Shown: positions 17,644 through 22,803 of the stretch, one piece after another
Layout of the letters: every line of letters begins with the position of its first letter
How positions within the stretch are numbered: the stretch's first letter is position 1
NCBI GenBank assembly: GCA_012729815.1
Contig: JAAYCJ010000348.1
Location: forward strand, 1 to 44,293
Direction: 5' to 3'
Length of the DNA stretch: 44,293 bases
Source: Phycisphaerae bacterium
GTDB taxonomy: Bacteria; Planctomycetota; Phycisphaerae; JAAYCJ01
Translations under genes and position numbers: made by a program
The notes under the pieces: generated by a model
What the model was told of the DNA's origin: nothing
The model's input: only the letters and a program-made list of their open reading frames with translations
Database searches by the model: none

Positions 17644-20055
17644 TCAGGGCAGGCCAAGGGTTTTGGCGAGCTCGTCGAACCGGCTTTGCCATTGGGCCGG
17701 TTCGATCCGCGGGTTTTGTAATCGAAAGTATGCCAGCAACTTACGGGCATGTTCCATCTTACCATCACGGCGGTGGCAGTCAATGAGGTGATACTGGGCT
17801 TCGTACCAGCCGTCGGTTTTGGCCTGGAGTCCGGCGGCGAGTTGGGCCCAGGGCTCGGTCGCCTGACCGTAGCGTTTGGCCCGCTCGCAGGCGAGGGCCA
17901 GACCTCGCAGGGCCTCGCCCGATTTTTGGCGCGGCAGGTGGGTGACCAGCCACTGGTACTGCTCGATCGCCTCGTTCGGCTGATCGAGGTCGTCCAGGAC
18001 GGCGGCGAGGCGGCGTCGGACGGCAATGGTCTGGGCCGTCGGGCCGGCCTGCTGCGTGGTTGTGGCGGCGGTCAGCATCTGTCTGTAGATGTTGACGAGG
18101 CCCAGGCCCAGTTGTTTCGCCTCGGCGGGTCGGTCGGTCAGGAGTTGGCGGAAGCGCTGCTCGATCGGATCGACCAGGGCGGCGAGGGCGTTCGGGTCGG
18201 TGTGGTTGTGGTTGGCGGCCTGGTTGATCCACTGGATGGCCTGCTCGTCGTTGCCGGAGGCGATTTCGAGGCGGATGCGCAGGGCGATGCTTTGGTCGGT
18301 CGGGGCCAAGCGATCGATCGCGTCGAGGAGTTGGCGGACCCGGTCGATCGGCGGGTCGGGCAGATCCATCAGTTTCTGGCCGGTCGCGGCGGCCACGTCG
18401 GCGATGGCGTCGGTCAGTTGCGATTTGTCCGGGCTATCGGATCGGCTGGCGGTTTCGGCGAATTGCGCGACGGCCTGGGCGGATTGCACGAGGCGTTGGC
18501 GGTCGGGCGGTGCGTTCGGCTGGGTGGTTGTGGCCGTTTCAGCCAGGCGGTAGGCGGCCAGGGCGATGCCGTATTGGGCTTCGAGGTGGATCGGCGATTC
18601 GGCGGTTAGCGCGGTGAGTTGGTCGAGGGCTTGGGACCATCGGCCGTCCTGGAGCATGAGGTTGGCCCGGTACCACGGGGCGCGGCGGACTTCGTGCTGC
18701 TGCGGGAATTGTTGTTCGGCGAAGGTCAGGAAGTCGAGAAATTGCGTTCGGTCGATTGGGGTTTCGCCGGTCAGGGCTGAGAGGCCGGCGCGAACGGCGC
18801 GGCTGCACATCGATGGGGCTCGGCGGTCGGCGGGATGGCGGCGGGTGAAGGCTTCGGCGGCGGCGAAGGCTTCGTTCCAGCGGGAAAGGCTCCACAGGGC
18901 GGCGGCTCGCGTGAAGCGCAGGTCGGCGGCGACGGTGTCGGGCGTTTCGTTGGATGCGGCGTCGATGCCCTTTTGGGCCTCAGCGGCGGCTTGGTCGAGG
19001 CGTCCTCCGGCGAAGGCGTCGCGGGCCTGGACGAGGTGGCGGATGGGGCCGGAACCGCCGTGTCGGCCGAGGATCTGGGCGAGCTGTGAACTCCACGGTT
19101 CGCCGTAGCCGTAGAGGCGCTTGGCAATCTCGTCGGTGCGCTGGGTGAACTGGTCTTTGGTTTTGGATGATGCGCCCGCTTCGGCCAATGCGACGAGGGC
19201 GGCGGCGCGGGCAAGGGCCATGGTTCGTTCGAGGGCGTCCCACTCACGGTTGGGCGGCACGCGGTCGAAGTAGCTCTTGGCCGTCCGTTCCAGTTCGAGC
19301 GGCGAGGTGAGTTGCTGGTGGGTTTTGAGGCGCAGGAGCGTAATCTTTTTGAACGTTTCGGGCGGGGTGTTTTTGTAGGTGAGCGGGGCGAGAAATTCGA
19401 TGACCTGCGGGTAGCGTTCCAGTTCGTAGAGGCACAGGGCCTGGCCCAGGAAGCATTCGGCGAGGATCGGGTGTTCCTGATAGCCCGAAGCGGTGAAGCC
19501 GGTGAACTGCTCGATGGCCGCTTCGAGGTGGCGCCGGCGTTCGGTTGGGTCGGGCGTGACGGAGGCCAGGCTGTACTCGGTCCAGGCGCGGGCGTAGTTG
19601 GCCCGCGAGAGCATGGTGGTGGCGTCGCGCCAGTCGGGGCTGTTGGTCGGGTCGGCGGCGGTCAGGCGCTGGTCGAGGACGTCGAGTTCGTGCTCGCACT
19701 GGCGGATGAGGAGTCCGTAGGCGTCGAGGGCGAGCAGCAGACTGCGTTTGGCCTGGTCGCGCAGGTCCGAGTCGGCTGGGCGGCGCTGGAATTCGGCGGC
19801 GAGGGCTCGGCCTCGCAGGCGGAGGATCTCGGCGCGCAGGAAGGGTTGGGTTCGCTGGTCGATTCCGCCACCGGGTTTGGCGAGCAAGGTTTCGGCCTCC
19901 TGAAGTCTGGCTTCGGCGGAGGGCAGGTCGCTGGCGGCTGCGGCGTCGGCCAGCAGGCGGTTGATTTGCGTCTCAGCCAGCGAGCCGAGGGTTGATGAAC
20001 CGGTGATGATCGTCAGCGCCGCCAGCCATAGCATTGAGTTCAGCCGATGTCTCAT
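17644..20055 (-). CDS. Large secreted helical-repeat (TPR-like) protein
   Basis: An 803-residue protein with a signal peptide (about residues 1-28, ending LGSLAETQ) and an almost entirely alpha-helical body. Repeated motifs such as EAETLL, AECFLGQALCLYELERY, DQLTALTAESPIHLEAQYGIALAAYRLAE and EAIEQYQWLV are characteristic of degenerate TPR units. By context it is a periplasmic scaffold of the TolQ/ExbD locus, analogous in position to YbgF-like TPR proteins of Tol systems, though no YbgF domain is recognised. The reading frame is open upstream to 20526. The ATG at 20055 is chosen because it overlaps the stop of the preceding exbD (ATGA) and begins a signal peptide. Confidence 0.75.
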   Translation of the reverse strand: MRHRLNSMLWLAALTIITGSSTLGSLAETQINRLLADAAAASDLPSAEARLQEAETLLAKPGGGIDQRTQPFLRAEILRLRGRALAAEFQRRPADSDLRDQAKRSLLLALDAYGLLIRQCEHELDVLDQRLTAADPTNSPDWRDATTMLSRANYARAWTEYSLASVTPDPTERRRHLEAAIEQFTGFTASGYQEHPILAECFLGQALCLYELERYPQVIEFLAPLTYKNTPPETFKKITLLRLKTHQQLTSPLELERTAKSYFDRVPPNREWDALERTMALARAAALVALAEAGASSKTKDQFTQRTDEIAKRLYGYGEPWSSQLAQILGRHGGSGPIRHLVQARDAFAGGRLDQAAAEAQKGIDAASNETPDTVAADLRFTRAAALWSLSRWNEAFAAAEAFTRRHPADRRAPSMCSRAVRAGLSALTGETPIDRTQFLDFLTFAEQQFPQQHEVRRAPWYRANLMLQDGRWSQALDQLTALTAESPIHLEAQYGIALAAYRLAETATTTQPNAPPDRQRLVQSAQAVAQFAETASRSDSPDKSQLTDAIADVAAATGQKLMDLPDPPIDRVRQLLDAIDRLAPTDQSIALRIRLEIASGNDEQAIQWINQAANHNHTDPNALAALVDPIEQRFRQLLTDRPAEAKQLGLGLVNIYRQMLTAATTTQQAGPTAQTIAVRRRLAAVLDDLDQPNEAIEQYQWLVTHLPRQKSGEALRGLALACERAKRYGQATEPWAQLAAGLQAKTDGWYEAQYHLIDCHRRDGKMEHARKLLAYFRLQNPRIEPAQWQSRFDELAKTLGLP

Positions 20056-20483
20056 GGTCGTTCTCCTATCGGCGCGTAGGCGACGCGGTGCAGGTCGGCG
20101 GCGTAGCAGGCGTCGAGGGCGGCGACCATGTGGCGGAAGGCGACGTCGGCTTGGCCGTCGATGATGACGGCGACGTCGGCGATGGCGCGTCGGGCCCGGA
20201 GCTTGTCGCGCAGCTCGTCGAAGGTGGCGCACGGCTGGCCGTCGCAGCGGACGAGCACGCCGGCCTCGGATTCTTCCAGATGCACCCGCACCGGCGGAAA
20301 CTCCTCGCGCGGGCGATCGGCGCCGGCGCCGGTTCGCGGCAACTGGGTCGGCAGCATGGCCTCCGGCGGTCGGAACGACGAGGTGCACATGAAGAAGATC
20401 AGCAGCAGAAACACCACGTCGATCATGGCCGCCAGATTCAATTCCGGCCGCCCGACCCGACGACTTCGCCGTTTCAACCGCAT
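20052..20483 (-). CDS. exbD: ExbD/TolR-family protein, second copy
   Basis: A 143-residue proton-channel partner with one N-terminal membrane helix. Its core LNLAAMIDVVFLLLIFFM carries the conserved Asp (about residue 21) needed for proton-driven work in ExbD/TolR. The periplasmic part ends with the family's DGQADVAFRHMVAALDACYAADLHRVAYA segment. The ATG at 20483 lies 9 nt after GGAGG and gives MRLKRRSRR, matching the N-terminus of the other ExbD (MRLRKTRR). The ATG at 20492 abuts the Shine-Dalgarno. The transposase unit ends only 15 bp upstream, so this gene has lost direct contact with the first exbD. Its stop overlaps the TPR gene start. Confidence 0.88.
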   Translation of the reverse strand: MRLKRRSRRVGRPELNLAAMIDVVFLLLIFFMCTSSFRPPEAMLPTQLPRTGAGADRPREEFPPVRVHLEESEAGVLVRCDGQPCATFDELRDKLRARRAIADVAVIIDGQADVAFRHMVAALDACYAADLHRVAYAPIGERP

Positions 20484-20497
20484 TGTGCTCATCCTCC

Positions 20498-20553
20498 AAA
20501 ATTAAACTTTCAAGACCTGACCCCATGGGGTCAGGTCTTGAAAGTTTAATTTT
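20498..20553. repeat. Perfect 56-bp palindrome at the 3' side of the transposase gene
   Basis: Two perfectly complementary 28-bp arms are centred between 20525 and 20526 on CCATGG. Each arm carries the block TTTCAAGACCTGACCCC. It is identical to the core of 21556-21611. The TAA stop of the transposase gene is inside the right arm (20546-20548). Confidence 0.95.
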
Positions 20554-21517
20554 CGTTCAGTTGTTTCTCCAGCTCGCAGAGGCGGGAGGCCAATCTTCTG
20601 TCCTTGGTTCGCCGGTCGGCGACGGCGTGGACGATGTGAGACACTGCTGCGGAGCGGATGCCGCCGAAGTGTTGCCCGATCTGCGCTACCGGCGTGGTGG
20701 TCAGCATGCGGGCCAGGTAGATGGCGGTCGATCGGGCCTCGTTGTTTTGACGGCCCCGCCGCATCAGGATCTCCGGATCACTTCCGAGAAGTTGGCAGAC
20801 TTCTCGGCTGATTTCCTGCAGAGAGGGTTGGCGGCGGAGGCGTTTGGCCTGGGGGATTTCCGGGTCGGCGGGCCGGCCGGTCAGCAGCGTCTGCATCCGC
20901 TCGATGAAGGCCGGCGAGCCGAGCAGGGCTGAGCCGACGGTCGCGGACAGCGGGCAGGTCGGCGGATGAAAGACGCCCTCGTTGAGGAAGGCCAGGTAGG
21001 CCCGCCGGGCCGAGTTGATCCCGCGGCCGTGAGACGTCAATACTTCCTGCCAAATCAGCCATTCGGGGGCGATTCGCGGATTCAGGTAGGCGGAGCAACT
21101 GCTCCAGGGGTAGACCTCGGGCCGCCCGGCCAGGCCCGCACGCACGGGGTTCAGGTGGATGTATCGCGTCAGTTCCCAGTCGTGCGACTCCTGCTCGACG
21201 AGGACGGCTTTGAATCGTCCCTGAAGCAGCGGTCCGCAGCGGCTGTGGCGGCGGTTGAACAGTGTCGCGTAGCCGGCGTTCAGGTCGTGCATGCCGGCGG
21301 AGAGGTCCGGCTGCGGAGTTCGCAGGTAGAGGTGGAAGTGGTTGTCCATCAGCACCCAGGCCAGAACCTGCCAGCCTCGGCGGCGGACGACTTGATCGAG
21401 AAGCTTGAGCCAGCGTTTGCGGTCGGCGTCATCGCGCACGATCGCCCGCCGCTCCAGTCCGCGGCTGGTCACGTGGTACAATCCATCCGCCACTTCGATT
21501 CTCAACGGTCGCGCCAT
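20546..21517 (-). CDS. REP-associated tyrosine transposase (RAYT, Y1/HUH) with DnaA-IV-like C-terminus
   Basis: A 323-residue member of the IS200-like REP-associated transposase family, which nicks and joins single-stranded palindromic DNA. It starts MARPLRIEVADGLYHVTSRG, the family signature. The HUH metal motif is His60-Phe-His62 in MDNHFHLYL, and the nucleophile is Tyr119 in LTRYIHLNPVRAGL. Residues about 230-310 form an added helical domain. Its pattern TAIYLARMLTTTPVAQIGQHFGG...AAVSHIV strongly resembles DnaA domain IV, a helix-turn-helix DNA binder. The stop codon is provided by the flanking palindrome. Although complete and apparently intact, it serves no obvious role for the host operon. 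Confidence 0.92.
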   Translation of the reverse strand: MARPLRIEVADGLYHVTSRGLERRAIVRDDADRKRWLKLLDQVVRRRGWQVLAWVLMDNHFHLYLRTPQPDLSAGMHDLNAGYATLFNRRHSRCGPLLQGRFKAVLVEQESHDWELTRYIHLNPVRAGLAGRPEVYPWSSCSAYLNPRIAPEWLIWQEVLTSHGRGINSARRAYLAFLNEGVFHPPTCPLSATVGSALLGSPAFIERMQTLLTGRPADPEIPQAKRLRRQPSLQEISREVCQLLGSDPEILMRRGRQNNEARSTAIYLARMLTTTPVAQIGQHFGGIRSAAVSHIVHAVADRRTKDRRLASRLCELEKQLNEN

Positions 21518-21553
21518 GTTTCACCATCCCTTCGCATGCCTCAGCCAACTGCC

Positions 21554-21613
21554 CGAAAATTAAACTTTCAAGACCTGACCCCATGGGGTCAGGTCTTGAA
21601 AGTTTAATTTTCG
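21554..21613. repeat. Palindrome at the 5' side of the transposase gene
   Basis: Same 56-bp palindrome (21556-21611) as 20498-20553, extended here by a complementary CG/CG pair to 60 bp. The centre is between 21583 and 21584. The TAA stop of the first exbD (21604-21606) is inside its right arm. Confidence 0.95.
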
Positions 21614-22038
21614 ATGCGAGTGTCGGGGGAGTCGACGACGGAGACGCGGACTTTTTGGATGTTTTCGGCGGCGCAGAGGCGCATGACGGTGGAGACGGAC
21701 CGCCAGAGGGCGTCGCGGTCGCCGCGGATCAGGACGGCCGGTCCGTCGGGTCCGGCGGCGGATTTTTCGCGGACGAGGAGGGCTTGGAGCTGCTCGTCGG
21801 AGCAGGTTCGTCCGGCGACGACGATTCGTCCGTCGGCGTGGAGGTTGACGATCATGCGGCCCATCGCGGAGTCGTCCTGTCGGCCCTGCTGGGCTTCGGG
21901 CAACGCGAGCGGTTCGGCTTCGACGCGGGTGAATTGCGAGACGGTCATGAAGAAGATGATGAGCAGAAACACCACGTCGATGAGGGCGGCGATGTTGATT
22001 TCCGTGCCGTAGGTTCGGCGGGTTTTGCGAAGGCGCAT
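21604..22038 (-). CDS. exbD: ExbD/TolR-family protein, first copy
   Basis: A 144-residue inner-membrane protein with one N-terminal helix. The core INIAALIDVVFLLIIFFM includes the proton-coupling Asp at about residue 22. A periplasmic domain follows, with the family ending GDRDALWRSVSTVMRLCAAENIQKVRVSVV. Start is MRLRKTRRTYGTEIN, 12 bp after the TolQ-like gene. The last residues (TRIEN) and the stop are encoded at the border of, and inside, the palindrome. The original C-terminus was therefore probably replaced by a few residues when the transposase unit inserted. The folded domain appears complete, so it is likely functional. Confidence 0.9.
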   Translation of the reverse strand: MRLRKTRRTYGTEINIAALIDVVFLLIIFFMTVSQFTRVEAEPLALPEAQQGRQDDSAMGRMIVNLHADGRIVVAGRTCSDEQLQALLVREKSAAGPDGPAVLIRGDRDALWRSVSTVMRLCAAENIQKVRVSVVDSPDTRIEN

Positions 22039-22050
22039 GGCCGTCGTCTC

Positions 22051-22803
22051 CTACTGGGTCGGGTTCTGGCGGAATCGAGCCATGAGCCGTTCGAGCACGC
22101 CCTCAGCCTCCGCCACGTACTCATCGATCCGGTTGCGGAACAGCGAGACGAAGAACATGGTGGGAATGGCGACGACCAGGCCCATGCAGGTGGTGACGAG
22201 GGCCTCGGAGATTCCGCCGGCCAGTTGCGAGGGTTTGGCGGCGCCTTCGGTCACCGCGATCTGATTGAACGAGCGGATCATGCCGGTGACGGTGCCAAGC
22301 AGACCGAGCATCGGCGCGGCGGCGGCGATGAACGAGAGGTAGTCGAGCTTGCGGTACATGCGGGCGATTTCACGTTCGCCGGTCTCCTGCATCGCGTTCT
22401 GCATGTCGAAGAATCCGAACATGCCGCCGACCTGTTTGAGTCCGGAGGCGGCGACGCGGCCGAGGAATGATTCGTGTTCGTCGGCCAACCGCTGGGCCTC
22501 GTCGTAGCGTTGGGCGGCCAGGTGCTGTTCGAGGGCCCGTTCGAGATCTTCGGGCAGGAACCGCATGCGCCGGATGGTCAGGAAGTGCTCGACGATCAGG
22601 GCCACCGAGACGAGGGACATCAGGATAATCAGATAGCCGATCAGGCCGCCGGCGCGGATGGTGCTCCAGAGGGTGATGGTCTGCGGCTGGGCGGCGCCGT
22701 CGGGCGTTTGTCCAGCCGTGGCGGCGGCGAGCATCGGGATCAGCAGGACCAACATCAGGGCGATCCAGGTCCATCGCGTCGAGTCAGCGGTTTTGACCAT
22801 CAT
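22051..22803 (-). CDS. MotA/TolQ/ExbB proton-channel family protein
   Basis: A 250-residue inner-membrane protein of the proton-channel family that pairs with ExbD/TolR to convert proton-motive force into periplasmic work. An N-terminal signal-like helix (about residues 12-30) precedes three family helices: LIGYLIILMSLVSVALIVEHFL, YLSFIAAAAPMLGLLGTVTGMI and ALVTTCMGLVVAIPTMFFVSLF. The GLLGTVTGMI and GISEALVTT motifs are the ExbB/TolQ signature. The extra N-terminal exported segment is typical of the ExbB-like subgroup. It lies between the vWA gene and exbD on one transcript. ExbB and TolQ cannot be told apart from sequence alone. Confidence 0.92.
   Translation of the reverse strand: MMVKTADSTRWTWIALMLVLLIPMLAAATAGQTPDGAAQPQTITLWSTIRAGGLIGYLIILMSLVSVALIVEHFLTIRRMRFLPEDLERALEQHLAAQRYDEAQRLADEHESFLGRVAASGLKQVGGMFGFFDMQNAMQETGEREIARMYRKLDYLSFIAAAAPMLGLLGTVTGMIRSFNQIAVTEGAAKPSQLAGGISEALVTTCMGLVVAIPTMFFVSLFRNRIDEYVAEAEGVLERLMARFRQNPTQ

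Follow-up and report, generated by a model that had tools for sequence, protein, structure and literature searches.

A single-copy Y1/HUH transposase gene bracketed by perfect palindromes within an ExbB-ExbD operon of a Phycisphaerae bacterium

Introduction

RAYT-like genes that carry terminal inverted repeats (TIRs) at their flanks were named TIRYTs and TIRtrons in PMC3733652. According to its text, many TIRs share the motif GGGGWSAS, some are self-complementary (mentioned for S. maltophilia ORF 1152), and the repeats are dispersed singly, as dimers and in groups. Most TIRYTs fall into subclass 2.1 of the TnpA-Y1 transposases, with a DnaA_C or other helix-turn-helix (HTH) domain (PMC6006769), and as far as the literature searched shows, the class has been described from sequence only. 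Two further systems invite comparison: the RAYT/REPtron units with GTAG-tagged REPs, represented by E. coli TnpA-REP (PMC2817692, PMC8266576), and the IS200/IS605 insertion sequences.

Here, we describe a Y1/HUH transposase gene bracketed by two perfect palindromes in a 44,293-nucleotide stretch of DNA from a Phycisphaerae bacterium (the window, meaning the whole stretch analysed). We compare the unit with the systems above, and with loci in related genomes that carry either the transposase or the operon in which it sits.

Results

A Y1/HUH transposase between two perfect palindromes

The transposase gene (20546..21517, minus strand) has an intact reading frame, open over 323 aa, and encodes a Y1/HUH transposase with a C-terminal DnaA-like HTH. 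Its Pfam matches are Y1_Tnp (1.1e-8) and Bac_DnaA_C (1.3e-8, residues 234-297, above the Pfam cut-off), the second being a profile result for the window protein alone. The HUH motif reads NHFH and the catalytic tyrosine lies within RYIHLNPVRA; H-x-H and tyrosine are invariant in 14/14 aligned transposase proteins. A sequence search of the PDB with the protein returned DnaA chains only, and a search against a defence-system library gave no match.

The left palindrome (20498..20553, no strand assigned) is 56 bp long, perfect and loop-free, with two 28-bp arms and a CG directly after it at 20554-20555. The right one (21554..21613, likewise strandless) is a perfect palindrome of 60 bp, with 30-bp arms that include the CG on both sides. 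An identical 58-bp block is common to both (20498-20555 and 21556-21613), and the original prediction was correct in these coordinates and in seeing a Y1/HUH gene flanked by two perfect palindromes. A 17-nt palindrome core matches the window four times where 0.10 matches would be expected, a count reached by 0/100 shuffles, and single-stranded DNA folding of the two sites gives z = -11.4 and -13.4. Because a perfect palindrome is the same on either strand, both strands can present one hairpin, and only the CG foot could give it a direction. The stop codon of the transposase gene lies inside the left palindrome, its last codons in the coding direction being AAC GAA AAT TAA.

Comparison with described systems

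The unit most closely resembles the TIRYT/TIRtron and subclass 2.1 elements. It shares with them a Y1/HUH core joined to a C-terminal DnaA_C HTH; terminal inverted arms that bear the GGGGWSAS motif, as GGGGTCAG in this unit, in place of REPs; an arm that overlaps the 3' end of the transposase gene; and arms found elsewhere in the genome as singles, dimers and groups. The subclass 2.1 features examined are present, namely the Y1/HUH core, a C-terminal HTH of Bac_DnaA_C, HTH_23 or HTH_28 type, and GGGGWSAS arms. By these features, the unit fits the TIRYT/TIRtron, TnpA-Y1 subclass 2.1 kind. It differs from TIRYTs as the text of PMC3733652 describes them in that each end is a complete, loop-free perfect palindrome in which two arms abut, GGGG lying at the centre and CG at the foot, and in its position inside an ExbB-ExbD operon.

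The original prediction called the unit a RAYT, and this stands in part. The gene is RAYT-like in being a single-copy, hairpin-flanked Y1 gene whose flanking hairpin repeats are dispersed through the genome near gene ends, and the RAYT pattern of one transposase gene and many dispersed repeats is found here, with one gene of the window type against 15 two-armed palindrome copies. A canonical GTAG RAYT was rejected: the NCBIfam model REP_Tyr_transpos matches at 1.5e-21 with 76.8 bits, under its cut-off of 80, no GTAG (GTRG) tag was found at the feet of the listed palindrome copies, where the foot is CG, and both its DnaA_C domain and its repeats agree with the TIRYT kind. The unit also lacks the GTAG/GTGG tag of RAYT/REPtrons, and its protein carries the extra DnaA-like domain. 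Its stems of 26-32 bp contrast with the 5-8-bp stems of the perfect REPs in PMC8266576, and its roughly 15 copies with the usually high copy number of REPs. With IS200/IS605 elements it has in common a Y1 transposase and hairpins at both ends, but here the gene has not multiplied (one gene-bearing copy in the genome, as against several), the protein is longer and has an HTH, the palindromes are long and perfect where IS200/IS605 hairpins are short and subterminal, and the unit has no tnpB. A single-copy IS is conceivable but unlikely.

The unit interrupts an ExbB-ExbD-ExbD gene run

The minus-strand gene run around the unit comprises a von Willebrand-type protein, ExbB, ExbD1, the unit, ExbD2 and a large protein. 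The ExbB-ExbD-ExbD part begins with a motA/tolQ/exbB-like proton channel gene (22051..22803; Pfam MotA_ExbB, 7.8e-32), followed by the upstream exbD-like gene (exbD1, 21604..22038; Pfam ExbD, 1.2e-21), the downstream one (exbD2, 20052..20492; Pfam ExbD, 2.1e-21) and the large gene (17644..20058, same operon, no Pfam match), all on the minus strand. This agrees with the predicted placement of a complete transposase between two exbD genes of one direction.

Loci from 29 relatives were fetched, of which 25 were measurable. Because exbD1 and exbD2 are adjacent and uninterrupted in all 25, we conclude that the unit was inserted between them, as had been predicted from the window. In 24 relatives the spacing ranges from an overlap to 36 bp, and in one it is 162 bp. 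The best orthologue of the operon (genome G009; ExbB 58-60% identical, gene order matching, a homologue of the large gene at the same place) has an exbD1/exbD2 overlap of 4 bp, and the overlap is likewise 4 bp in two further genomes from the same family as the window genome. Neither an old transposase fixed at this junction (0/25 measurable relatives carry one there) nor an absence of other palindrome copies from the genome was found. The insertion is supported by gene order; the relatives are too distant to fix its ends at the DNA level.

Both exbD reading frames are unbroken despite the inserted unit. Read along its coding strand, exbD1 finishes in ...CGC ATC GAA AAT TAA; its final three codons, including the stop (GAA AAT TAA), are supplied by the right palindrome and are the same as those of the transposase gene. 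At the other side, the left palindrome directly borders, along its outer edge, the GGAGG (20493-20497) of exbD2, for which a second ATG, 9 nt inside, is the likelier start. Since the right palindrome ends exbD1 with TAA and the GGAGG borders the left one, the insertion added a stop codon and kept the ribosome-binding site of exbD2. No sigma-70 promoter was found in 19900-22200. Transcription probably continues through the unit.

A dispersed family of two-armed palindromes

A genome-wide search for the arm, with a count of solo palindromes as the original prediction had proposed, found a dispersed family. The 5.47-Mb genome (367 contigs) holds 15 two-armed copies, two of them in the window, three on contig C98, two each on C162 and C199, and one each on C143, C183, C240, C242, C278 (degenerate) and C310, besides a few single or decayed arms. 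The copies are intergenic under a simple codon-bias gene model, many lying within tens of bases of gene ends. Mismatch-free arms of at least 26 bp occur in 11 of them, and all 15 have GGGG at the centre. The identical ends of the unit had been taken as a sign of recent movement, a reading we rejected: most copies in the genome share the same arm, so identical ends are no proof of it, and solo copies elsewhere are just as alike.

With arms aligned from the centre, 400/420 cells pair across the 15 copies, and seven of the 28 arm positions (18, 19, 22, 24, 26, 27 and 28) occur with both sides changed. As the copies are related by descent, this co-variation shows that symmetry has been kept, not how; hairpin-templated repair alone could have kept the palindromes perfect. 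A CG lies just outside the 28-bp arm on at least one side in 14/15 copies, where chance at a CG frequency of 0.125 would give about 24%, and on both sides in five, so palindrome plus CG looks like the unit. The copies not being independent, the CG foot could have been inherited with the repeat rather than serve as a recognition tag.

Several loci show particular arrangements. On C98 (L059:3919-7072), three palindromes in 3.1 kb separate two successive genes and bracket each of them; on C199 (L063:3084-3856), a short gene (~122 aa) for a possible lipoprotein lies between two palindromes of different arm subtype. Palindromes on C162 (L061:2942-3001) and C240 (L068:1721) have other outer arms (CGTTAACTTAATATTC... 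and TTAACTAAATATTC..., respectively), each nearly symmetric, which suggests sub-families.

Two other explanations were weighed. The palindromes might have a regulatory role, maintained by selection on operon expression, as terminators, attenuators or mRNA stabilisers, with the transposase as a passenger; they are strong stem-loops, predicted to be terminator-like on the plus strand only, and many copies lie just beyond gene ends. The operon, however, is on the minus strand, the T-run that was scored lies within the stem, the arms match the terminal arms of the transposase family, and the palindrome is missing from 60/60 relatives searched with up to two mismatches although the operon type is common among them; we consider this explanation improbable. 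An assembly artefact that joined the transposase segment into the exbD junction through the shared 58-bp repeat is conceivable in a genome of 367 contigs, where one single-arm copy (C254) does lie at a contig end. It is nevertheless very improbable, as contigs run unbroken through 15/15 two-armed copies, the flanking exbD order is that of the relatives, and the position of the transposase stop, inside a terminal arm, is shared with relatives.

Related arms and brackets in other genomes

The exact 36-nt palindrome has no match in the named genome collection, and the literature searched holds no mention of the arm sequence. A search for the 17-nt arm across 391 other genomes of the phylum gave matches in only one, a distant genome (G154), as two single arms TTTCAAGACCTGACCCC (C91, L039; C178, L040); near the C91 arm lies a decayed inverted partner.

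Transposase relatives were compared at 18 loci in named genomes and at a further nine in genomes belonging to the same class. Most full-length relatives have terminal inverted arms that begin GGGGTCA(G) and frequently overlap the transposase stop, usually one arm per end with GGGG outermost. The closest relative (53% identity, from a Planctomycetaceae MAG) has the arm GGGGTCAGGTCTTGACATTTAACTTTT, identical to the window arm at 23/27 bases. The inner halves of the window palindromes are TGGGGTCAGG... inverted arms, oriented as in the relatives; the outer halves are additional relative to the relatives' single-armed ends.

The bracket itself recurs. Two genomes of the same class (G056 and G466) encode transposases 42-45% identical to that of the window, with inverted dimers on both flanks, and hold further solo dimers, mostly with GGGG outside, the opposite polarity to the window. 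The few GGGG-centred dimers of G056 sit at contig ends (L123 C34, L133 C147) and could reflect the assembly or dimers lying back to back. The window genome also has a second Y1 transposase gene (C71:17703-18570; L072:2204-3071), 36% identical to the window transposase over about its first 139 residues only. Inverted dimers lie on both of its flanks too, but their arm is another one, AAAAGGGGACATTCTACTTTT; this arm matches at 40 sites across the genome, most of which form inverted pairs with a spacing of about 60 bp. The recurrence in these three cases makes hairpin-gene-hairpin, one gene accompanied by many hairpins, a general pattern, and the tidy cassette of the original prediction is not singular, as G056, G466 and the C71 locus have the same bracket.

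Two further accounts concern how the palindromes arose. In a true IS200-like insertion sequence, palindrome, transposase and palindrome would move as a whole, and the solo palindromes would be excision scars, equal to the junction at which a circle joins its right and left ends. Joining two single arms of the relatives' kind, GGGG outermost, would give exactly the window palindrome, and GGGG is central in 15/15 two-armed copies, as expected of a junction. We nonetheless regard this as unlikely: the genome has one transposase copy against 15 repeats, and a junction cannot account for the brackets of G056 and G466, where most dimers are of reversed polarity. In a related account, which we find similarly unlikely, the loop-free palindrome would be the joined-ends form of a TIRtron: the enzyme would excise its element as a circle with a perfect palindrome at the junction, and this junction, not the gene, would re-insert and spread. 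This circle-junction reading is attractive for the window genome, but the opposite dimer polarity means that it leaves G056 and G466 unexplained.

Discussion

We favour, with a probability of about 0.8, a TIRtron-type unit of the RAYT/TIRYT kind, in which one Y1/HUH transposase acts in trans on a dispersed hairpin family. We propose that the single chromosomal Y1/HUH gene has a copy of its cognate repeat at either end. The repeat is an inverted pair of the family's terminal arm, TGGGGTCAGGTCTTGAAAGTTTAATTTT, abutted into a perfect palindrome. A palindrome copy that becomes single-stranded, most likely on the lagging-strand template, would fold into a hairpin with a CG foot, and by analogy with the biochemistry of TnpA-REP (PMC8266576), the transposase would cut and join such single-stranded hairpins beside the CG-tagged foot. 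The DnaA-like domain would recognise the GGGGTCAG arm, at least partly, or target the replication fork. By the same analogy, hairpins would spread in trans from the one resident single-copy gene.

The unit is, on these features, a well-preserved representative of an element class that has been described but little studied; its operon setting is of local interest only. Should the joined-ends account be true, the solo palindromes would be REPs of a new, strand-independent kind that originated as terminal repeats, and would mark a route from transposon ends to dispersed hairpins. The comparison with relatives shows that one kind of arm can make hairpins of either polarity. The finding touches on how REP-like hairpins originate and spread, and why bacteria retain one transposase gene for them. 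The window genome offers a compact system: one enzyme and some 15 candidate substrates that are nearly identical to one another and fully symmetric, with a second, unrelated Y1/hairpin family alongside.
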